Shown: positions 3,476 to 43,436 of the stretch, in pieces
Layout of the letters: every line of letters begins with the position of its first letter
How positions within the stretch are numbered: position 1 is the stretch's first letter
NCBI GenBank assembly: GCA_040879145.1
Contig: JBBDKX010000006.1
Span: 1-43,746, forward strand
Reading direction: 5' to 3'
Source of the DNA: Candidatus Spechtbacterales bacterium
GTDB lineage: Bacteria; Patescibacteriota; Minisyncoccia; Spechtbacterales; 2-12-FULL-38-22
DNA: 43,746 bases
Made by a program: the position numbers and the translations under genes
Notes under the pieces: model-generated
Told to the model about the DNA's origin: nothing
Databases searched by the model: none
Seen by the model: only the letters and a program-made list of their open reading frames with translations

Positions 3476-3714
3476 AGACCATACTCCCAACCCCCACACC
3501 AATTAGCAATATTTTGACAGCGTGTAAGGGAGGGGTTACGCATACTTGTATTTTAAGTGCATAGGCGCAACTTAGTTAGTTTACGTAAAAATAGTTAGCA
3601 CAATTGCTAATTGATGTGGGGGCCAACATAGGGTTCTGCTACACGAACACACCCCTAATTAATACCATAGTAGACCTTAAACGTAAAGAAAAACGGGTCA
3701 TATTATGACCCGTT
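3476..3714. repeat. Non-coding stretch with a 20-bp long-range inverted repeat
   Basis: The arm at 3491-3510 (cccccacaccaattagcaat) is complementary to 3603-3622 at 19 of 20 positions, with about 92 bp between. The right arm lies upstream of the deacetylase terminator. No ORF or recognisable RNA family was seen. SRP, tmRNA and RNase P RNA signatures were looked for and not found. It could be an unrecognised structured RNA or a repeat element upstream of tRNA-Ser. Confidence 0.6.
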
Positions 3715-6206: not shown

Positions 6207-7247
6207 TTATTTTTTCTTTTCCTCCAACTCAATATCTATTTCATGTTCTTTACCCTCTCTCATAATCTTCGCTTTAACTTTGTCCCCTATTTTATGCTCT
6301 TGTATAACATCCTGAATTGTAAGCTCAGGGGTTATCTTTTTACCGTCCACTTCCAGTATAATATCAAATTCTTGAAGACCGGCTTTTTCTGCAGTTGAGC
6401 CGGGTACAACGGCGGTATCTCCCAAGGTTTCCCGCATAATAAGCGCGCCATAATCCACCGGGAGCTTGTTTTCTTTTTGGATACTTGTGTCAAGTATTAA
6501 ATAGCGCACGCCGAGAAAGGGAAGTCTTACGTGTCCGTACTGTTTTACCTCTTCAAGATCTTTTCTTGCCTGGTCAATTGGTATGCTAAAACCGATATTT
6601 TGAGCGCCAAACACAACTGCTGTATTGAGCCCTATAACTTTTCCGTCTAAATTAACCAACGGACCTCCTGAGTTTCCCGGATTTATTGCCGCGTCTGTTT
6701 GTATAAGACCCCGCAGACGCTCTGTGTGTTTTTGGTCTCCATGCTGGGCTGTTATAAAACGACTAAGCCCTGAAACTATACCCAAGCTCACCGTATTTGA
6801 AAACTCACCAAGAGCATTTCCCACGGCAATAACGTACTCTCCAAGCTCAAGTCCGCGAGAGCTTCCAAGTTCCAGATATGGAAAATTCGCGCCCTCTATC
6901 TTGCAAATTGCAACGTCATGTATGGGGTCGCGGGCTATTACCTTAAGTTCTCGTTTTGTTTCTTCATCATGGTCCAAAAATGCTGTATAATCCGCCTTTG
7001 GATCCTGTACAACATGACTATTCGTTAAAACTATTCCGTCCGGAGATATAAAAAAACCACTTCCTCCGCCTATCTTTACCGCCTCTTTTTCGCCTTTTTT
7101 AAATTTAGGCACCATGTACTGCTTGCCGTTTATAGGCATCTTATAAAAACCTTCTACTTTAGGTAAATCTTTTGTAATTACAATACTGATAACCGCCGGA
7201 GTTACTCTTTTTATAACTTCTTTAATGTGTTCATTTTCTTTAAGCAT
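6207..7247 (-). CDS. HtrA/DegP-like serine protease with PDZ domain
   Basis: This 346-aa S1C protease has catalytic His78 (TNSHVV), Asp111 (IHDVAI) and Ser193 (NPGNSGGP), and a C-terminal PDZ domain from about residue 245 (GSTAEKAGL, GDKVKAKIMREG). HtrA proteins degrade or refold damaged proteins, usually in the periplasm or at the outer membrane face. Here the protein begins MLKENEHIKE with no signal peptide or membrane helix. An in-frame TAA lies just upstream, so no longer start is available. It may be cytoplasmic, exported another way, or have lost its anchor. A SemiSWEET gene follows. Confidence 0.92.
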   Translation of the reverse strand: MLKENEHIKEVIKRVTPAVISIVITKDLPKVEGFYKMPINGKQYMVPKFKKGEKEAVKIGGGSGFFISPDGIVLTNSHVVQDPKADYTAFLDHDEETKRELKVIARDPIHDVAICKIEGANFPYLELGSSRGLELGEYVIAVGNALGEFSNTVSLGIVSGLSRFITAQHGDQKHTERLRGLIQTDAAINPGNSGGPLVNLDGKVIGLNTAVVFGAQNIGFSIPIDQARKDLEEVKQYGHVRLPFLGVRYLILDTSIQKENKLPVDYGALIMRETLGDTAVVPGSTAEKAGLQEFDIILEVDGKKITPELTIQDVIQEHKIGDKVKAKIMREGKEHEIDIELEEKKK

Positions 7248-7284
7248 ACCTATATTTTATCAATATTATTTTTTTTATACAAAC

Positions 7285-7313
7285 TTGAAATAGTGATCTT
7301 TTAGTGGTAGTAT
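7285..7313 (+). promoter_or_regulatory. Promoter of tRNA-Arg
   Basis: TTGAAA (7285-7290) and TAGTAT (7308-7313) are spaced 17 bp apart and sit 15 bp before the tRNA. Confidence 0.75.
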
Positions 7314-7327
7314 ATTGGAGAACAAAA

Positions 7328-7402
7328 GCCCCTGTAGTTCAACGGACAGAACAAGCCCCTCCTAAGGGCTAGATGCAGGTTCGACTCCCGCCGGGGGCAC
7401 CA
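7328..7402 (+). tRNA. tRNA-Arg (anticodon CCT)
   Basis: The acceptor GCCCCTG pairs with CGGGGGC. The anticodon stem AGCCC/GGGCT has loop CTCCTAA, giving anticodon CCT. The T-arm is GCAGG-TTCGACT-CCCGC with one A-C mismatch. The discriminator is A and CCA is encoded (7400-7402). It would read AGG codons. Confidence 0.94.
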
Positions 7403-7487
7403 AAACAGAACTCGACGGCTTTTTAATTTTAATAGATCCATTTATTATGTTTTATGTTAAGATACAAAAAATAACCACCTAAAAACT

Positions 7488-11358: not shown

Positions 11359-12261
11359 TTGTTAGATATTCAAACCATTATAGGTGTTTTACTTGTTGTA
11401 GCTGTCGCATATGCATTCACTAACCGCAAAAAAGCTGTTGTGAGCCTTAGGATACGAAAGTTTTCAAAAGCCGGAGTAAAGTTTGTAGACCCAACAAGAA
11501 CATACATTGAAAAAGGTGTTCGCATAGGCAGAGGTACTAAAATATACCCGAATGTATATTTGTATTCGGGAACACAGGTGGGTGAAGATTGTGTAATATA
11601 TCCAGAAGTACATCTGTTTGAATCAGAGATTGGATATGGATGTACAATATGGCCCGGTGTCAGTATTGTTGATACAACGTTACGCGGAGGCAATGAGGTT
11701 CACAAGGGTGTCAGAATGGTTCGCTCATTTGTGGGAAAACATACCACAATTGACTCTTTTTCTCTTGTTAAGGATTCTGTTATAGGCGCCAAATCCAAAG
11801 TAGGACCGATGGCATACGTGCGCGATAAAAGCATTTTGGGTAAAAAAGTAGAAGTCGCAAATATTGAAATTGTGCGTTCACATATCGGAGAGGGTACAAA
11901 AGCAAAGCACGGCAGGTACATAGGAGACGCAACCATAGGTAAAAACTGCAATATAGGCGCGGGGACCGTATTTTGTAATTATGACGGCTCTCAAAAGCAC
12001 AAAGCAATTCTGGGGGACGATGTGTTTGTCGGGAGCGGAGTAATGCTTATTGCACCCATAACCTTGGGTAAAAAAAGCTTTATTGCTGCGGGGTCTGTCG
12101 TAAGTCGTGACGTTTCAGAAGAAACACTTGCTGTGGCGCGCGGACAAAAGCACACACATATGATATTCAATGATGTTTTAAACTCAGAATATCCCGAGTA
12201 TATAAGAGACGCTGTAGAAAAAGATGAAGAGGGTTGGAAACTTAAAAAAACGCGGAGATAA
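11359..12261 (+). CDS. Membrane-anchored left-handed beta-helix acyltransferase, GlmU-C-like
   Basis: This 300-aa protein has one N-terminal membrane segment (about 5-21) followed by many hexapeptide repeats of the left-handed beta-helix type (IGRGTKIYPNVYLY, IGKNCNIGAGTVFCNYDG, VFVGSGVMLIAPITLG, AAGSVVSRDV). The end matches the GlmU C-terminal acetyltransferase, including the CNYDG segment and K/H residues (HGRYIGDA). The GlmU uridylyltransferase domain is missing. It probably acetylates a GlcN-1-P-like or surface sugar substrate. The start is TTG, chosen because AAGGAGG lies 7 nt upstream. The leader (AGCTCTTAAAATAGTAAGGAGG) resembles those in the small-gene island. Confidence 0.82.
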   Translation: MLDIQTIIGVLLVVAVAYAFTNRKKAVVSLRIRKFSKAGVKFVDPTRTYIEKGVRIGRGTKIYPNVYLYSGTQVGEDCVIYPEVHLFESEIGYGCTIWPGVSIVDTTLRGGNEVHKGVRMVRSFVGKHTTIDSFSLVKDSVIGAKSKVGPMAYVRDKSILGKKVEVANIEIVRSHIGEGTKAKHGRYIGDATIGKNCNIGAGTVFCNYDGSQKHKAILGDDVFVGSGVMLIAPITLGKKSFIAAGSVVSRDVSEETLAVARGQKHTHMIFNDVLNSEYPEYIRDAVEKDEEGWKLKKTRR

Positions 12262-12532: not shown

Positions 12533-12574
12533 TTATTCAACTGTAACTGACTTTGCTAAGTTTCTGGGTTTATC
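12533..12574 (-). pseudogene. Orphan 3' end of a second glmS copy (last 13 codons)
   Basis: The minus strand encodes DKPRNLAKSVTVE followed by TAA, identical in protein to the last 13 residues of the intact glmS 48 bp upstream. Many codons differ synonymously and the stop differs (TAA against TAG). No start or further glmS sequence is attached. It looks like the tail of a diverged glmS allele left in place. Confidence 0.85.
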
Positions 12575-12577
12575 CAT

Positions 12578-12601
12578 CCCTCACTTACATATAAGTGAGG
12601 G
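12578..12601. repeat. Perfect palindrome between glmS and its tail fragment
   Basis: The arms CCCTCACTTA and TAAGTGAGGG are separated by CATA. It lies exactly between the intact gene and the orphan tail and has no T-run on the minus strand. Confidence 0.75.
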
Positions 12602-12622
12602 ACTTCACTTCGTTTCGCATTC

Positions 12623-14464
12623 CTACTCTACTGTAACGCTCTTGGCAAGATTCCTGGGTTTATCCACATTAAGCCCTCTCATTACGCCGACATGGTACGC
12701 GAAAAGCTGGAGAGGTATAACACTAAGTATTGGGCTTAACATCTCAATTGTTTCGGGTATGTATACCAAGTCTTCGGTAAGAGAGTTAGCTGAATTATTT
12801 CCTTTTGTTGTCATTATAATTATAGGACCGCTCCTTGCTTTTATTTCTTCCATATTACTCATCATTTTTTCAAACACACTATCGCGCGGCATTATGGCAA
12901 AAGTTGGAAAGTTTTTATCTATCAAAGCTATCGGCCCATGTTTCATCTCCCCTCCCGCGTAGCTTTCAGCGTGCATGTAAGACACCTCTTTTATTTTAAG
13001 CGCCCCCTCCATTGCCACAGGGTAGTTATATTTTCTGCCCAAATAGAACATGTTAGGATAACCCTTGTATTTTTGGGCAAGTTTTTTTATTTTATCCGCA
13101 TCATCCAGTATTTCTTTAACCAGTTTGGGTAATTTTTTAATCTCTTCTGTAATCTCCTTCCCTGCAGTCAAAGACATGTTGCGCTGGCGCCCTAAAAATA
13201 CGGTCAAAAGAGCCAGAGCTGTAAGCTGTGATGTAAAAGCTTTCGTGGAAGCTACTCCAATTTCGGGTCCCGCATGATTATATATTCCCGCGTCAGTCTC
13301 GCGCGCTATTGTGGACCCTACGACATTTACTATACCGAGTGTCAAAACACCTTTCATTTTTGCCTCTTTCAAAGACGCTAAAGTATCCGCTGTCTCACCT
13401 GACTGCGAAATACAAAGAAAAGCTGTCTGTTTTTTATTTAAAATGGGTTTTCTGTATCTAAATTCACTTCCCAGATCCACCTCTACTGGAATACCTGCAT
13501 ATTCTTCCAGCATATACTTACCTATCATGCCCGCGTAATATGCCGTACCACAAGCCACTATGTGTATCTTTTTTATGTCTTTTAGTTTATCTGCTACAAG
13601 TTCAAGTCCGCCAAGTTTTACGTTGCCCTCGTCAGGAACAAGCCTTCCGCGAAATGTACTCTCTATACTTTCGGGCTGTTCCATTGTTTCCTTTAACATA
13701 AAATGCTCATATCCTCCTTTCTGTGCCTCTTCCAGGTCCCACTCTATCTCTTCCACCTTAGGAAGTTTCACGGTGTCTTTGCTTAAAACTTTCATATCAC
13801 TTGAAGTAAGTTTTACTATTTCATTATCTTCAAGATAGACTACCTGTTTTGTGTGAGCCAAAACTCCGGATGGATCGCTGGATACAAAATATCCATCTTG
13901 CCCTACTCCGATTAAAAGAGGGCTACCCAGGCGCGCCGCGACAAGCTCATCAGGCGCCCTACTGGAAATTACAGCTATGCCGTAAGTTCCTCTAACCATG
14001 TTTAACGTCTGTTGAACCGCCTCAAGTAAATTTTCTTTATAAAAATACTCTACCAAATGAGCTAAAACCTCCGTATCGGTTTCTGATTTAAACTCATGTG
14101 TGCCTGAATCCTGCTCGTTAAGCCACTGCTTAAGTTCCCTGTAATTTTCCACAATGCCATTATGTACAATATAAAAATCTCCGGTGCAATCCACATGTGG
14201 ATGCGCATTTTTTTTACTGGGAACACCATGAGTAGCCCATCTTGTATGAAAAATAAAAGGAGCTCCAACAAGCTTCCTCGCGCCAAGTTTTTCTTCCAGC
14301 AAACTAACTCTGCCTACCGCCTTTTCAGATGATATCTTTTTTGTGCCGGGGTCGTAATAAGCCATCCCAGCAGAATCATACCCTCTATATTCAAGGCGCT
14401 TTAAAGCCTCCAAGCCCACCCTCGGATCTGACTGTTTACCTATATAGCCGATTATTCCACACAT
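12623..14464 (-). CDS. glmS: Glutamine-fructose-6-phosphate aminotransferase (isomerizing)
   Basis: GlmS makes glucosamine-6-phosphate from fructose-6-phosphate and glutamine, the entry step to UDP-GlcNAc and peptidoglycan. The ATG at 14464 was chosen because it gives MCGIIGYIG, placing the catalytic Cys at position 2 before Met removal. An upstream in-frame start would add 14 residues and abolish activity. The N half is a class II glutamine amidotransferase (RWATHG, HNGIVENY). The C half has two SIS domains (SQSGETADT, EIGVASTKAFTSQ) and ends in the conserved DKPRNLAKSVTVE. Length (613 aa) is normal. No glmS ribozyme is evident in the short upstream region. Confidence 0.96.
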   Translation of the reverse strand: MCGIIGYIGKQSDPRVGLEALKRLEYRGYDSAGMAYYDPGTKKISSEKAVGRVSLLEEKLGARKLVGAPFIFHTRWATHGVPSKKNAHPHVDCTGDFYIVHNGIVENYRELKQWLNEQDSGTHEFKSETDTEVLAHLVEYFYKENLLEAVQQTLNMVRGTYGIAVISSRAPDELVAARLGSPLLIGVGQDGYFVSSDPSGVLAHTKQVVYLEDNEIVKLTSSDMKVLSKDTVKLPKVEEIEWDLEEAQKGGYEHFMLKETMEQPESIESTFRGRLVPDEGNVKLGGLELVADKLKDIKKIHIVACGTAYYAGMIGKYMLEEYAGIPVEVDLGSEFRYRKPILNKKQTAFLCISQSGETADTLASLKEAKMKGVLTLGIVNVVGSTIARETDAGIYNHAGPEIGVASTKAFTSQLTALALLTVFLGRQRNMSLTAGKEITEEIKKLPKLVKEILDDADKIKKLAQKYKGYPNMFYLGRKYNYPVAMEGALKIKEVSYMHAESYAGGEMKHGPIALIDKNFPTFAIMPRDSVFEKMMSNMEEIKARSGPIIIMTTKGNNSANSLTEDLVYIPETIEMLSPILSVIPLQLFAYHVGVMRGLNVDKPRNLAKSVTVE

Positions 14465-14602
14465 AAAGTTATCTATATCATAAACCTTTTTAATACTATT
14501 TGACAATCAAAAAATAGAGCTAAAACAGGTTGACTGATGTTAACCCCATGCTATTGTGTTTATAGTTGCTTAAAAAGCTCCAACTTAAGAAAGGGGGCAG
14601 AT

Positions 14603-24668: not shown

Positions 24669-27179
24669 CTAAACCACTATATTCACTATCTTATCTTGAA
24701 TCGCAATAATTTTTTTGGGTTCCCTCCCCTCCAAAAACGCCGCAACCTTCTCATTCTCCAACGCCATCTTCTCAAGCTTGTCTTTGGATGTTCCTCTCTC
24801 CACCTCCAACTCCGCCTTAACCTTCCCGTTAACCTGAACCGGAATTGTTATTGTATCTTCCCTTGCCAACTCCTCATCAAACTCGGGCCATTTTTGGTCG
24901 TGAATACTTGAATCAGTAGATAGTTGAGACCATAATTCTTCTGTAATATACGGGGCGAAGGGAGCCAGCAATACCAGTAAAGTCCTAATATCTTCTTCGG
25001 AGTGCTCGTTATCGTAAAGCGTGTTTACAAAGGTCATCATGGCGGCGATGGCGGTATTGTAGTGCAATCTCTCAATATCCTCTGTCACTTTTTTTATCAT
25101 CTGATGCCTTGCCTGCTCCAACTGTTTACTGTTTACTGTTTTCTGTTCACTGTCTTGAACAAGACCAAAGACTCGTCCCAAAAACCTATGCACTCCTCGT
25201 ATTCCCTCGTCCCGCCAGTCTCCCCCCTGTTCAAGAGGGCTTAAAAACATTAAATAAGTGCGCACTGTATCTGCGCCAAACGCCTCAAAAAGATTATCGG
25301 GGTTTATTACATTTCCTTTTGATTTTGATATCTTCGCTCCATCTTTTATTAAAAGTCCATGGGCGCGAAACTTATCAAAGGGCTCTTCAAAATCTATAAG
25401 TTTTTGGTCGTGCAAAAACATTGTAATAAAGCGCGCGTACATTAAGTGCAAAACTGCGTGCTCCTGCCCGCCTATGTACATATCAACCGGTAACCAGGTT
25501 CTCGTCCTGAGCTTGTCGAAGGGTTTGTCATGCACATCTGTAGAGGGATACCTTAAAAAGTACCATGAAGAATCTAAAAAAGTATCGCTTACATCTGTTT
25601 CGCGCCTTGCGGCTCCGCCACACTCAGGACAAGCTACCTCAACAAAAGCACTATCTGCCTCAAGTGGCGCTTTACCCGTGCCTTTAGGGCGGAAGTCTTC
25701 AAGATAAGGTAACTCTACAGGCAAGTTTTCCTCGGACACGGGATGAATTGCCACCTCTTCGCCGTTTATTATAGTCCAATCAATTCCCTCTTCACCCTTT
25801 TTCTTTGCTTTTTCTAAACATTCGCCCGCGCAGTAGATAATGGGAATGGGTGGTCCCCAGTACCTCTGGCGGGATATCAACCAGTCACGCAAATGATATT
25901 GGACACGCATTTCCCCCCCTGCTTCTTCCGCTATTTTCTCTCTTGCTTTTTCGCTTTCGGTGTCGTCAAATTTACCTGAATTTACTAAAACACCCTCGCC
26001 TGTGTAGGCGCCTTTTGTTGCTTCGCCTGTTTCTTTATCTGGGGGCAAAATTACGGGGCGTATTGGAAGTCCATATTTTACGGCAAACTCAAAATCACGC
26101 TCGTCGTGCGCGGGTACGGCCATAATGGCACCTGTTCCATATTCTGCCAAAACATAATCTGAAATCCAAACAGGTACCTTTTCCCCGCTTGCGGGATTTG
26201 TAGCAAAAACACCTGAATCTACCCCATCTTTTTCTGTGTTTTGATTTTCTGCCTGTAAACTGCGTCCCTTAATTGCTTTATCAATATATTTTTTAACTTC
26301 GTCCGTTGTTTGCCAGCCCATATCAAGCCATTCATGCGCAAGCTCGGGCGATGCAACTATAAATGTCACGCCATATAGAGTGTCGGGACGGGTGGTGAAG
26401 ACTTCTACAAAATGTTTGCCATCTTCTTGCCCGTCTCGCCCGAGGCTCGCCGAGGTGGACCCTTCAATATTTGATAGCGGAAATTTAAAAAGCGCGCCTT
26501 CACTTTTTCCTATCCAGTTTCTCTGCGCTGCTCGTGTGCGCTCGGACCAGTCAATTTTATCAAGATTTTCTAAAAGGCGCTCCGCGTAATCTGTAATTTT
26601 TAAAAACCACTGTCTTAATTTGCGTGTTTCTACAACACTATCACACCTTTCGCACCTGCCCTGTATCACCTGTTCGTTTGCGAGCACCGTCTGACAACCC
26701 GGACACCACTGCACAGGCGCTTCTTTGTGGTAGGCAAGCCCCGTCTTATAAAGCTGTAAAAAAAGCCACTGTGTCCACCTGTAGTAAGCGGGGTCTGTTG
26801 TGTCTACAAGATTATCCCACGAATACATTTGCCCCGCATTCTCTAATTGACGGCGGAAGTTTGCGGTACTTGTTTGTATAAGGTCGCGGGGATGCACGCC
26901 CTTTTTTATAGCAAAATTCTCGGAGTGAATGCCAAAGGCGTCAAAACCTATTGGCTCAAAAACATCGTACCCCCGCATACGCATATAACGGCCGTGGATA
27001 TCGGAGCCCGTAAAAGCATAGAGGTTGCCTATGTGGAGGCCTTCAGCGGAAGGGTAAGGAAACATCATCAAATTAAAATACGGATTTTTTGCATTTTTAA
27101 TATCCACTTGCCAGCGATTCTCTGCCAACCAGCGCTTTCTCCATTTTGACTCTATTTTAATCGGGTTATAGCTCTTCAT
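24669..27179 (-). CDS. leuS: Leucyl-tRNA synthetase
   Basis: This 836-aa class Ia synthetase charges tRNA-Leu. The HIGH motif is HIGN (49-52, LHIGNLY). The zinc-binding CPGC/CERC pairs are at 159-179. The CP1 editing domain has TTRPDTLYG (262-270) and the WLISRQRYWG segment follows. The KMSKS motif is KISKS (616-620). Residues 239-254 and about 675-690 look extra relative to the family and are repeat-encoded. Residues 553-561 are also repeat-like but not extra. GGACAGGAG lies 5 bp before the ATG. A diverged duplicate of the first ten codons lies just upstream. Confidence 0.97.
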   Translation of the reverse strand: MKSYNPIKIESKWRKRWLAENRWQVDIKNAKNPYFNLMMFPYPSAEGLHIGNLYAFTGSDIHGRYMRMRGYDVFEPIGFDAFGIHSENFAIKKGVHPRDLIQTSTANFRRQLENAGQMYSWDNLVDTTDPAYYRWTQWLFLQLYKTGLAYHKEAPVQWCPGCQTVLANEQVIQGRCERCDSVVETRKLRQWFLKITDYAERLLENLDKIDWSERTRAAQRNWIGKSEGALFKFPLSNIEGSTSASLGRDGQEDGKHFVEVFTTRPDTLYGVTFIVASPELAHEWLDMGWQTTDEVKKYIDKAIKGRSLQAENQNTEKDGVDSGVFATNPASGEKVPVWISDYVLAEYGTGAIMAVPAHDERDFEFAVKYGLPIRPVILPPDKETGEATKGAYTGEGVLVNSGKFDDTESEKAREKIAEEAGGEMRVQYHLRDWLISRQRYWGPPIPIIYCAGECLEKAKKKGEEGIDWTIINGEEVAIHPVSEENLPVELPYLEDFRPKGTGKAPLEADSAFVEVACPECGGAARRETDVSDTFLDSSWYFLRYPSTDVHDKPFDKLRTRTWLPVDMYIGGQEHAVLHLMYARFITMFLHDQKLIDFEEPFDKFRAHGLLIKDGAKISKSKGNVINPDNLFEAFGADTVRTYLMFLSPLEQGGDWRDEGIRGVHRFLGRVFGLVQDSEQKTVNSKQLEQARHQMIKKVTEDIERLHYNTAIAAMMTFVNTLYDNEHSEEDIRTLLVLLAPFAPYITEELWSQLSTDSSIHDQKWPEFDEELAREDTITIPVQVNGKVKAELEVERGTSKDKLEKMALENEKVAAFLEGREPKKIIAIQDKIVNIVV
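25112..25157. repeat. In-frame short tandem repeat in leuS
   Basis: The minus strand carries successive AACAGTA-type heptamers encoding the DSEQKTVNSKQLEQ segment before the anticodon-binding region. It is low-complexity compared with the flanking gene. Confidence 0.65.
25497..25523. repeat. Repeat-like segment in leuS (PFDKLRTRT)
   Basis: The minus strand reads CCCTTCGACAAGCTCAGGAC, a repeat core shared with the infB, metG and glyQS segments. The encoded PFDKLRTRT occupies a place where LeuRS normally has a similar-length PFD..RTRK stretch, so this is a replacement or chance match rather than an insertion. Confidence 0.5.
26418..26465. repeat. In-frame repeat insertion in the leuS editing-domain junction
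   Basis: The GC-rich plus-strand sequence contains ctcgcccgag followed by ctcgccgag and encodes about 16 residues (EGSTSASLGRDGQEDG) just before the conserved FTTRPDT motif. Flanking protein is normal LeuRS. Confidence 0.7.
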
Positions 27180-27279
27180 TTTTCTCCTGTCCCTTCACCA
27201 AAAAAATATTTTTATTTTCCGCGAAGCGGTATATTTTTTCTGGTGCGGGATCAATTTTTATAGGATTATATTTTTTCAT
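27166..27279 (-). pseudogene. Orphan 5' fragment of leuS, overlapping the intact start
   Basis: A 37-codon ORF begins MKKYNPIKIDP, matching the start of the intact leuS (MKSYNPIKIES) with many synonymous differences. It then diverges (APEKIYRFAENKN) and ends at a TAA inside the real leuS start region. It sits between the leuS promoter and leuS. It looks like the remnant start of a resident leuS left after replacement. A regulatory leader peptide is the alternative, but it has only two Leu codons. Confidence 0.72.
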
Positions 27280-39923: not shown

Positions 39924-42900
39924 TTATAACTTCTTAATACCCACCCTGACTTTATGCTTTGGGTCCCAGTTGTATTCAGAAAACATATCGTAGGCGCGAT
40001 CTTCCACGTTAGATATCTCCGCAACATCAGAGGAGGTCGTTTTTGACATCTCTTCTTCGTACTTTAAAAGCTTGCCTGCAAGCTCCGAGCCAAGAGAGTA
40101 CTCAACCTGTATTTTATCGGCCGGCTTTAAACCAAGCTTGCGTCTCATGTTTTGTATGTGGCGCATCATCTCTCTTGCCTGTCCCTCTACAGCAAGCGCT
40201 TCCGAAAATGTAACCTTTAAAGCAATCTTACCCTCAACAACCCAGTCACTGCTTTCGGTTTGAACATCAGAAAATGAAACGACATCCTTAACATTAATCT
40301 CGTCTTTTAAAATATTTTTTAGTTCATCTGAAATATCTTTCGGCACAGCAAGAACCTCAAGAGGTTGGCGTACTTTTAATCCGTTGTCAGAACGAAGCCG
40401 AAGAGCAACTTGAGACCATGAACGAATATCCCGCATAACTGCAACAACTTCCTCATCCTTTTTAGAAAATTTTTCGTATTCAGGATAATCCTCCCAGTGT
40501 ACGCTTTCATTCCCGGTCTTATTTAACCCTTGCCATATATGTTCAGATACAAAGGGGATAAAAGGGGCCGTCATTTTTGAAGTTTCATTCAAAATAAATG
40601 CCAGCGTGTCGGAGGCCTCATCTTTTTCATCTTTTGTTTCAGGCCTCTGAAGACGCTCTCTGGACCGGCGTATATACCAATTAGAAACATCTTCAACAAC
40701 AAACTCTTCCAAAGCGCGTGCCGCGTCAAGAATGTTGTAATCATCTATACACCTTACCACCTTTTCGTTAACTTCCTTAAGTTTAGCAAATATCCACTGA
40801 TCTAATACATTTTTACTTGTCTTCGCGGAAAAATCATCAGATGGCTTTACGTCAGGAGCATAAGTATTGAGGAATGTGTAGGAATTTGCAAACGTAGAAA
40901 GAAATCTCTGCCATCTTTCTTTTACATCCTGCTCACTAAATAACTTCGCGTCTCCGGGCTGGTTAACTGTAAAAAAGTACCAGCGCACAGCATCCATGCC
41001 GTATTTTGATGCCAACTCTTTTGGGTCAATGATATTTCCCTTGCTTTTAGACATCTTTTGTCCATTATCGTCCAAAACTATTCCAAGAGTAATAACATTC
41101 TTATATGAAGGAGCTTTTCCGAGGATAACCGAAACTGCCAACATCGTGTAAAACCATCCGCGAGTCTGATCCATTGCCTCTGTTATATAATCAGCGGGAT
41201 ATGCTGTATTTTTGTCTATAGTATCTTTATTTTCAAAAGGGTAATGCTGTTGAGCAAAAGGCATGGAGCCGGAATCAAACCAAACATCTACAAGATCTTC
41301 TACCCTTCGCATGTTTTTACCGCAGGCTTTACAAAGGAACTCTATATCATCAACAAAGGGTCTATGAAAATCTAATTCACCCTCGTTGTTATAAGGAAAC
41401 TTGGCGTACTCCACTCTTCTCAACTGCGCGTTCTGAGGATACTCACCCTTTCTCTTCCACTCAACACCCTCATTTATCGTAAGGCCCCCAAGAGATGCCT
41501 CAAGAACCCAAAGCGGATGCCCGTGGCTTACCAGCAATATTTTTTTACCGCTGTATTTTTCTTCCAAAGCGCTTATCGCCTCAAGCATTCTCTTTCTTAC
41601 ACCTGCTAATGTTTCTCCTTTGGGAGCGCCTTTTGTAAAGTTATAATTTTTTTCTCCTTTAAAATAGTCCGAATAACCCTGTTCCGATTTGCCTTCATAT
41701 ATGCCCACACCAATTTCTTTTAGTAGGTCTTCCGTTATTACATCCACGCCGAGTGCTTCTCCAACCATTTGAGCAGTCTCGCTTGTTCTTCCTAGTGGTG
41801 ATGTAACCACAATATCTACACCACCCTCTTTTTTAAGCTGTTCTATTGATTCTTTGACCTGCTCCACGCCTTTTTTACTTAACGTGTCTAGGGGGTGTTT
41901 TTTTGTAGTATCGCTTATCAATATTTGGGCCTCATTGTTTTCTGAATGGCCGTGGCGCATAAGCCAGTATTCATTTTTTCCTTTTGTGAGTTTTGCAAGA
42001 TCATCTCTGGACCCTACAACATCCACATGCTCACACTCTTCGCATTTCCAAACAGGAAGAGGTGTACCCCAGTACCTGGAACGAGAAAACGCCCAGTCTT
42101 TTACATTGCGCAACCACTCACCAAACCTTCCCTCTTTAATATGTTCGGGAATCCAATTTATCTTATTATTTGCCTTTATAAGATCGTCTTTTAAGCTACT
42201 CATTCCTATAAACCATGAGTCTGTAGCGTAATAAAGGAGTGGTTCGCTACACCTCCAGCAGAAAGGGTATGAGTGCTCGTAGGGCTGAACTTTGTAAAGC
42301 AAGTTGCTTTTTTCCAGGTATTTTATAATATCCTTTTCTGCCTCTTTCACATTCCTCCCCTCAAATTCTTTAACAAATTCATTGAAATTTCCAGCCTCAT
42401 CAACTGTGTGCACTGTGGGCAACCCAAACTCCTTCCCAAGCTGGTAGTCATCCTCTCCGTACATTACAGCAGTATGCACGATACCTGTTCCATCTTCTGT
42501 GCTTACAAAATCGGCTACATACACCTTGTGGGAAGTTTCGGACCGGAGTTCTTTAATATCGAACAAGGGTTCATATTCAAGGCCCACAAGGTCCTTGCCT
42601 TTTATTTCACTTAACACATCATACTCATCTTCCAATATTTCAAGCAATTCTGTTGCAAGTACGTAATATTCCCCATCCTGCCTTACAACCGAATATTTTA
42701 TATCTTTACCCACAGCCAAAGCAACGTTTCCCGGAAGAGTCCAGGGTGTTGTTGTCCATGCCAAAAAGTATATTTTGGGTTCCACCTCTTCAAGTTTTAG
42801 TTTACTAAACGCCTCGGGATCGCGCAGTTTGAACTTTATATAAACGCTCTGGTCTGTAACATCTTTGTATCCTTGTGCAACCTCGTGGGATGAAAGGGCA

Positions 42901-43436
42901 GTTCCGCACCTCATACACCTTGGAACAACCTTGTGGCCTTCGTAGAGCAGTTCTTTTTCATATGCCTGTTTCATTATCCACCACAAGCTTTCCATATATA
43001 GCGGATCTAATGTTATATACGGATTTTCCATATCAATCCAAAAGCCCATGCGCTCTGTGAGTTCTTCCCACTCTTTCTGATAGCGCCACACACTCTCGCG
43101 GCACTTAGCATTAAACTCGGCGATGCCGTATTTTTCAATATCTTTTTTACTGTTTAGTCCCAGTTCTTTTTCCACCTGTATTTCTACCGGCAACCCGTGC
43201 GTATCCCAACCGGCGCGGCGCTCTACGTGAAAACCGCGCATTGTTTTATATCTACATACTATATCTTTATAAGAACGAGCCTCTACGTGATGAAAACCCG
43301 GCATACCATTTGCAGTTGGCGGACCTTCATAAAACACAAAGCTTCGGTCTTTTGACCGGTTTTCAACACTTTTTTTGAAAGCCTGTATTTCTCTCCAGTT
43401 TTTTAATATTTTTTCTTCAAGTTCGGGGAAATTCAT
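39924..43436 (-). CDS. ileS: Isoleucyl-tRNA synthetase (type 2) with inserted histidine-phosphatase domain
   Basis: This 1170-aa protein has class Ia motifs PTANGMPGFHH (40-50, HIGH equivalent), the CP1 editing domain (WTTTPWTLPGN, 227-237), RYWGTPLPVW (454-463), DVWFDSGSMP (717-726) and KMSKSKGN (794-801). It is type 2, the eukaryote-like class often mupirocin-resistant. Between about 477 and 688 a full histidine-phosphatase domain interrupts the catalytic core. It carries LMRHGHSEN (R494, H495), SPLGRTSETAQ (R550), E574 and LLVSHGH (H638). IleRS sequence continues normally afterwards. Length is roughly 200 aa above the usual. It is followed at 6 bp by recO. Confidence 0.94.
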   Translation of the reverse strand: MNFPELEEKILKNWREIQAFKKSVENRSKDRSFVFYEGPPTANGMPGFHHVEARSYKDIVCRYKTMRGFHVERRAGWDTHGLPVEIQVEKELGLNSKKDIEKYGIAEFNAKCRESVWRYQKEWEELTERMGFWIDMENPYITLDPLYMESLWWIMKQAYEKELLYEGHKVVPRCMRCGTALSSHEVAQGYKDVTDQSVYIKFKLRDPEAFSKLKLEEVEPKIYFLAWTTTPWTLPGNVALAVGKDIKYSVVRQDGEYYVLATELLEILEDEYDVLSEIKGKDLVGLEYEPLFDIKELRSETSHKVYVADFVSTEDGTGIVHTAVMYGEDDYQLGKEFGLPTVHTVDEAGNFNEFVKEFEGRNVKEAEKDIIKYLEKSNLLYKVQPYEHSYPFCWRCSEPLLYYATDSWFIGMSSLKDDLIKANNKINWIPEHIKEGRFGEWLRNVKDWAFSRSRYWGTPLPVWKCEECEHVDVVGSRDDLAKLTKGKNEYWLMRHGHSENNEAQILISDTTKKHPLDTLSKKGVEQVKESIEQLKKEGGVDIVVTSPLGRTSETAQMVGEALGVDVITEDLLKEIGVGIYEGKSEQGYSDYFKGEKNYNFTKGAPKGETLAGVRKRMLEAISALEEKYSGKKILLVSHGHPLWVLEASLGGLTINEGVEWKRKGEYPQNAQLRRVEYAKFPYNNEGELDFHRPFVDDIEFLCKACGKNMRRVEDLVDVWFDSGSMPFAQQHYPFENKDTIDKNTAYPADYITEAMDQTRGWFYTMLAVSVILGKAPSYKNVITLGIVLDDNGQKMSKSKGNIIDPKELASKYGMDAVRWYFFTVNQPGDAKLFSEQDVKERWQRFLSTFANSYTFLNTYAPDVKPSDDFSAKTSKNVLDQWIFAKLKEVNEKVVRCIDDYNILDAARALEEFVVEDVSNWYIRRSRERLQRPETKDEKDEASDTLAFILNETSKMTAPFIPFVSEHIWQGLNKTGNESVHWEDYPEYEKFSKKDEEVVAVMRDIRSWSQVALRLRSDNGLKVRQPLEVLAVPKDISDELKNILKDEINVKDVVSFSDVQTESSDWVVEGKIALKVTFSEALAVEGQAREMMRHIQNMRRKLGLKPADKIQVEYSLGSELAGKLLKYEEEMSKTTSSDVAEISNVEDRAYDMFSEYNWDPKHKVRVGIKKL
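41373..42008 (-). other. Histidine-phosphatase domain inserted in ileS (residues about 477-688)
   Basis: This domain has all catalytic elements of the branch 1 phosphoglycerate-mutase-like family. They are the RHG nucleophile motif, the second Arg in SPLGRTSETAQ, the acid/base region EIGVGIYEG and the C-terminal SHGH. It sits between VVGSRDDLAKL and FHRPFVDDIEF, segments that are contiguous in ordinary type 2 IleRS, so it would project from the catalytic core. The reading frame is continuous and the codon use is ordinary. The boundaries are estimates. Confidence 0.88.

Follow-up and report, generated by a model that had tools for sequence, protein, structure and literature searches.

The DNA analysed here is a stretch of 43,746 nucleotides (nt), hereafter the window, from a Candidatus Spechtbacterales bacterium (assembly GCA_040879145.1, contig JBBDKX010000006.1, positions 1 to 43,746), in which the intact leuS gene is preceded by what looks like a second, diverged leuS start (Table 1). 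This scrap opens a small open reading frame (ORF) of 37 amino acids (aa), the first ten codons of which (MKKYNPIKID) match the start of intact leuS (MKSYNPIKIE) at 22 of 30 nt. Seven codons differ, five synonymously and two non-synonymously, a bias that is partly ascertained since scraps were found by protein similarity. The first-pass annotation had described a diverged leuS start ahead of the intact gene and an ORF that stops inside the real start, and both observations hold, the ORF taking in 14 nt of leuS. Homology ends at about position 27251, beyond which come a palindrome, a spacer and these 14 nt, so that leuS scrap accounts for only about 29 nt of the ORF. The 37-aa ORF appears to be a chance composite, with no evidence that it is used, and sequence comparison supports the scrap itself as a once-functional, diverged leuS end.

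The palindrome, which had gone unremarked in the first-pass annotation, is 61 bp long, sits exactly between the scrap and the real start, and belongs to a region that folds more strongly than shuffled sequence (z −2.66). A mirror image of this layout is found at glmS, whose 3′ tail had already been proposed as a second terminal scrap in the window: the real gene end is followed by 20 nt, a palindrome and the scrap, in which 7/7 changed codons are synonymous (the same ascertainment applies). At both genes, the palindrome stands against the inner end of the scrap and the insert is without an endonuclease ORF.

Table 1. Features at leuS and glmS, in window coordinates
Feature	Position	Strand	Basis and remarks
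Intact leuS	24669..27179	−	836-aa ORF, running from the putative replacement start
Putative displaced native leuS 5′ end (scrap)	27251..27279	−	MKKYNPIKI and part of the tenth codon; aa similarity, mainly synonymous changes
37-aa ORF (made up of scrap, palindrome and, read in another frame, 14 nt of leuS)	27166..27279	−	ORF list
Spacer CAGGAGAAAA, 10 nt	27180..27189	−	AGGAG; likely ribosome-binding site of the replacement start (from sequence)
Candidate ORF-less mobile element: imperfect palindrome TCCCGCACCAGAAAAAATAT..ATATTTTTTTGGTGAAGGGA directly adjoining the scrap	27190..27250	−	Inverted-repeat scan, folding
Putative displaced native glmS 3′ end DKPRNLAKSVTVE*	12533..12574	−	Protein similarity, synonymous differences
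Palindrome TCCCTCACTTATATGTAAGTGAGGGA, separating the scrap from the real glmS end	12577..12602	−	Inverted-repeat scan
Intact glmS with putative replacement 3′ end	12623..14506	−	ORF

Endonuclease genes and palindromes in the same position

What the leuS and glmS inserts might be is suggested by uvrA in the same genome, where a displaced copy of the 3′ end lies beyond an insert and the gene end is restored. Between the restored end and the scrap, inside an inverted repeat, this insert holds an 81-aa ORF for a predicted GIY-YIG nuclease (PF01541 at 69.2 bits, cut-off 22.6). Four aligned ORFs of this kind share invariant Y5, Y16, R26 and E62, which are the Tyr, Tyr, Arg and Glu expected for the nuclease fold. 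The genome has ten PF01541 matches, two of them in long ORFs (one probably uvrC). Among the remaining eight (i) two, at tRNA-Leu CAA and tRNA-Arg TCG, separate a 5′ scrap from the intact tRNA, (ii) three adjoin tRNAs (Gln, Pro/Gly and a remnant at Ser), (iii) one is that at uvrA, (iv) one, flanked by inverted repeats, lies between parA and parB and (v) one is truncated, on contig C19.

The leuS palindrome itself has a 71-bp relative (77% identical, E 7e-9) at G000:C21:54585-54655, and this relative abuts, without a gap, the displaced 3′ end of a tRNA (TTCGACTCCTGTCGGGGACGCC). The corresponding 5′ end (GTCCCCGTGGCTTAACA) is found upstream of an intact tRNA-Arg(GCG), a gene that itself sits between inverted repeats. 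An Rfam scan gave no match to an intron or any other family at the leuS site and no intron match at C21, and a group I or II intron or other known structured RNA was rejected on these grounds. Palindrome and endonuclease are connected at locus L238, where an RNase P RNA gene (rnpB; class A in Rfam, reverse strand) has a GIY-YIG element with arms CCCCGCACCTGAAAATG near its 5′ end. These arms recur in an ORF-less palindrome located in another helix of that gene. The arms of the leuS palindrome match those of the GIY-YIG elements L238 and L236 beyond shuffled arms (P 0.0004 and 0.0018 for the two arms). A palindrome–endonuclease link is thus supported for the leuS palindrome family, and for the other palindromes it may be surmised.

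Association of GIY-YIG genes with tRNAs

The association extends well beyond this genome. Among the best 80 GIY-YIG relatives drawn from GTDB genomes (Patescibacteria, Bacteroidota, Omnitrophota and others), 69/80 loci have a tRNA gene within 300 nt, against 8/104 control ORFs from the same loci, and all tRNAs within that distance of the 69 ORFs are co-oriented with the ORF. Direct repeats flank 61/80 GIY-YIG loci and 5/104 control ORFs. On the far side of the GIY-YIG ORF, partial copies were found for 50 of the 82 adjacent tRNAs (none with reversed sequence), and many of these 5′ tRNA copies stop near the anticodon. It should be kept in mind that tRNA-Leu is over-represented in this sample, because the first query row was the tRNA-Leu ORF. 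A second sample, obtained with the uvrA ORF as query in 380 genomes of the phylum (159 matched), gave 24/29 loci near a tRNA and 22/29 with flanking repeats, figures that have no separate control and include at least one flanking repeat that is an N-gap. In two loci, L188 and L210, a tRNA-Ala is interrupted at the same anticodon position (TTTG|CAA) by an insert that comprises a GIY-YIG ORF and a second, complete tRNA-Ala. The tRNA carried in L188 retains the site, so carried copies are predicted to have no obvious resistance to cutting.

In the survey of the Spechtbacterales genome described below, roughly a third of 37 tRNAs were found near partial copies of themselves, with the 5′ parts lying upstream and the 3′ parts downstream. 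By eye, one tRNA-His (L060:1540-2080, on G000:C24) seems to show three levels of nesting: a broken copy encloses a second broken copy, whose anticodon loop in turn harbours an intact copy with a 16-bp inverted repeat. An ORF-less element of 261 bp, delimited by terminal inverted repeats of 21 bp (CCTCTAATTAACAACTGAAAT) and comprising two hairpin modules, recurs at L060:1765-2025, L069:3373-3632 and L091 (about 7160-7420), in tRNA scraps and in a palindrome at gyrB described below. A relative (G006) has a tRNA-Lys between inverted repeat arms, with repeated partial copies (L121:11200-11500), and nesting is therefore not unique to the genome studied. In the window, 132 bp with 20-bp inverted arms (CCCCCACACCAATTAGCAAT; 3491-3622) lie immediately upstream of tRNA-Ser(CGA), which is followed by a partial 3′ tRNA copy.

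Gene ends across the genome

The genome search for terminal duplicates that the first-pass annotation had proposed covered stretches adding up to 516 kb of the 847-kb genome (about 60%). A nearby copy of the same end was found for 13/962 gene ends, a few of which are tandem paralogues or chance pairs, and for none under permuted pairing (a displacement control had been made earlier). The same test in five relatives (374 kb) gave 2/603 positive ends, one of them in the tRNA-Lys region mentioned above. Apart from leuS, glmS and uvrA, the cases inspected are (i) the 5′ end of rpiB, with scrap MKIYLGSDHAGFELK followed by a GGGGTCAGACC..GGTCTGACCCC palindrome and with 7/9 changed codons synonymous (again partly ascertained), (ii) the 3′ end of gyrB, with a palindrome in which the 261-bp element is nested, (iii) the 3′ end of a family-2 glycosyltransferase gene, with a palindrome of the same family as that at gyrB and (iv) the 5′ end of dnaX (MSKVLYRK*), a weaker and less clean case with a longer insert. 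Taken at sequence level, this supports repeated replacement of gene ends at leuS, glmS, rpiB, gyrB, the glycosyltransferase gene, uvrA and many tRNAs, and probably at dnaX. The earlier suggestion of frequent allelic replacement with breakpoints at gene ends survives in part: ends appear to be replaced repeatedly, and plain allelic exchange becomes less likely, as a palindrome abuts the scrap and a GIY-YIG ORF can be found there.

Survey positives discarded as tandem paralogues, repeats or chance were the response regulators in L090, the HIGH pair of metG, the repeats in L077, positions 11359-12261 of the window and an ORF in L067 that overlies a tRNA array and is not a gene. An exact duplicate at L061:742 was also discarded, since it spans an N-gap and is likely an assembly join.

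Interpretation and alternatives

We consider it likely that the leuS scrap was left behind by an ORF-less palindromic mobile (homing) element, which would have entered leuS and provided it with a new 5′ end. Insertion of a mobile element together with a gene end is suggested both by the palindrome, which abuts the scrap, and by the GIY-YIG ORF found in the same place at uvrA and a number of tRNAs. The ancestral leuS start would have read MKKYNPIKID, and an element made of the palindrome, a short leader and a foreign leuS 5′ end would have entered near codon 10, displacing the native start upstream and leaving the gene to run from the imported one. This element could be an ORF-less relative, perhaps derived by ORF loss, of the GIY-YIG elements at uvrA, tRNA-Leu and tRNA-Arg of the same genome. 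In such elements, the predicted endonuclease would cut a conserved gene, and the break would be repaired from DNA in which that gene already holds the element, so that the adjoining part of the gene is copied in; insertions that fail to restore the gene would be lost. Elements devoid of an ORF may move in trans. Rescue copies might be hit again, giving rise to a tRNA nested in a tRNA; the site retained in L188 and the apparent tRNA-His nest are as expected from such repeat hits.

Several observations weigh against this reading. The leuS insertion has no endonuclease ORF, palindromes differ in sequence from gene to gene, and the match of the glmS arms is not significant (P 0.06). Words resembling the leuS arms occur twice near and 24 times far from GIY-YIG ORFs (an enrichment of only about 2-fold) and were dropped as a general signature of their vicinity. 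TCCC/GGGA ends were not enriched as a genome-wide signature and are therefore retained as a suggestion only. No close relative with an empty leuS site was found, the relatives being only about 60% identical. Finally, the ascertainment noted above tempers the synonymous bias, on which neutral decay of a local duplicate was rejected.

The leader peptide conserved in relatives that the first-pass annotation had named as an alternative, in other words an attenuator controlling leuS, would account for an ORF ending within the leuS start and followed by a hairpin. It is rejected as scarcely credible: the scrap was found upstream of leuS in 0/6 relatives, the ORF is not leucine-rich and lacks a leucine codon run, no Rfam family matches at the site, and the layout is also seen in unrelated genes and, where a leader would be senseless, at 3′ ends. 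An assembly artefact or strain mixture is highly improbable too. Some exact duplicates elsewhere in the assembly do span N-gaps, but leuS and glmS are gap-free, their copies are 26-27% diverged, and the same architecture is found in many unrelated assemblies.

A less easily dismissed, yet still unlikely, scenario is natural transformation, in which a foreign leuS fragment would have been joined by homology inside the gene and illegitimately outside it, leaving the native start behind, with a palindrome that came from the donor or marks a hairpin-prone breakpoint. It would fit the mainly synonymous differences between scrap and gene, and also the comparison of leuS with its flanking genes that the first-pass annotation had suggested. 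Most window genes with data are closest to genomes of their own family (metG 66% vs 56-59%, ileS 59% vs 47-51%), and this is reversed for leuS, the product of which is 45-48% identical to own-family proteins and 54-62% to those of other families of the order (58-62% for LeuRS of G003 and G006). Judging from these identities, leuS is discordant with its neighbours, which also counts in favour of the mobile-element reading. However, under transformation there would be no reason to expect, at several genes, a palindrome against the inner end of the scrap or an endonuclease ORF located there. The palindromes could instead be REP-like and mobilised by a Y1 (RAYT-type) transposase, the copies of gene ends stemming from later recombination. 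The genome has one Y1 transposase match (C19:4184-4459, outside the window), and the rpiB palindrome is presumably of a kind found near RAYT-type genes, which we take as a lead only. This explanation is very doubtful, since it accounts for hairpins but not for the coupled duplication of gene ends, and the arms of the leuS palindrome match GIY-YIG elements.

Returning to the mobile element, further essential genes and tRNAs of this bacterium show this layout, often with a small endonuclease gene, and it therefore looks like a little-noticed class of selfish DNA that would disrupt essential genes while supplying a spare part. On balance, we lean towards a class that is widespread in Patescibacteria, Bacteroidota and Omnitrophota, in which GIY-YIG elements would insert into essential tRNA, rnpB and protein genes together with a replacement for part or all of the gene, while ORF-less palindromic relatives such as that at leuS would spread alike and rewrite gene ends, and rescue copies hit anew would yield nested tRNAs.

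Comparison with known systems

The closest analogue appears to be the gene hybrids of fungal mitochondria (atp6, atp9, cox2 and nad3 in Glomus, atp6 in Allomyces), in which an inserted foreign C-terminus is followed by an endonuclease ORF (LAGLIDADG or GIY-YIG) and the displaced native C-terminus, with mainly synonymous differences (PMC3630166). Shared features are a duplicated gene end whose native copy lies beyond the insert (leuS, glmS, rpiB, gyrB and uvrA), mainly synonymous divergence of the imported end (at leuS, glmS and rpiB, with the ascertainment already noted) and, at uvrA, tRNA-Leu and tRNA-Arg, an endonuclease ORF in the insert. The lack of such an ORF at leuS and glmS is a difference, and leuS would therefore work like a fungal hybrid without being a full member. 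While fungal hybrids are found in organelles and at 3′ ends, the present cases are bacterial, affect both 5′ and 3′ ends, have tRNAs as main targets and include palindromic arms and ORF-less versions.

In the Candidate Phyla Radiation (CPR), rRNA genes have insertion sequences with LAGLIDADG homing endonucleases (PMC11270868). The phylum, the (here predicted) homing endonucleases and the targeting of essential RNA genes are common to both. CPR rRNA insertions, however, are introns or resemble them, and the RNA either loses or tolerates them, whereas here no intron was seen and the carried gene part would restore the gene.

Small palindromic repeats within protein and RNA genes are also a hallmark of the Rickettsia palindromic elements, which resemble the present palindromes in this respect and are not known to include copies of gene ends or an endonuclease. 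Genomic islands at the ends of genes and tRNAs carry an integrase gene and, through an identical core, generally rebuild 3′ ends. They likewise combine a displaced end with a restored gene, but the inserts described here also concern 5′ ends and whole tRNAs, measure tens to a few hundred bp and have no integrase at the sites. Within the open-access literature searched, no GIY-YIG element restoring gene ends or tRNAs was found described in bacteria, and the class is provisionally new there.

If correct, this would trace both the scattered remnants of essential genes and the partial copies of tRNAs to a single process, suggest what many small orphan GIY-YIG proteins adjoining tRNA genes are likely to do, and offer a natural counterpart to insert-and-rescue drives. 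The ancestry of a gene end could then differ from that of the gene body, which would affect start annotation and gene trees in Patescibacteria.

Other observations in the window

Two further features were noted in the window. The product of ileS (39924-43436) seems, by eye, to hold a histidine phosphatase-like segment (LMRHGHSE...) within the synthetase. At the contig end (15-111), there is an exact direct repeat with 79-bp spacing and WILDPKGRDR in both copies, possibly an assembly edge.
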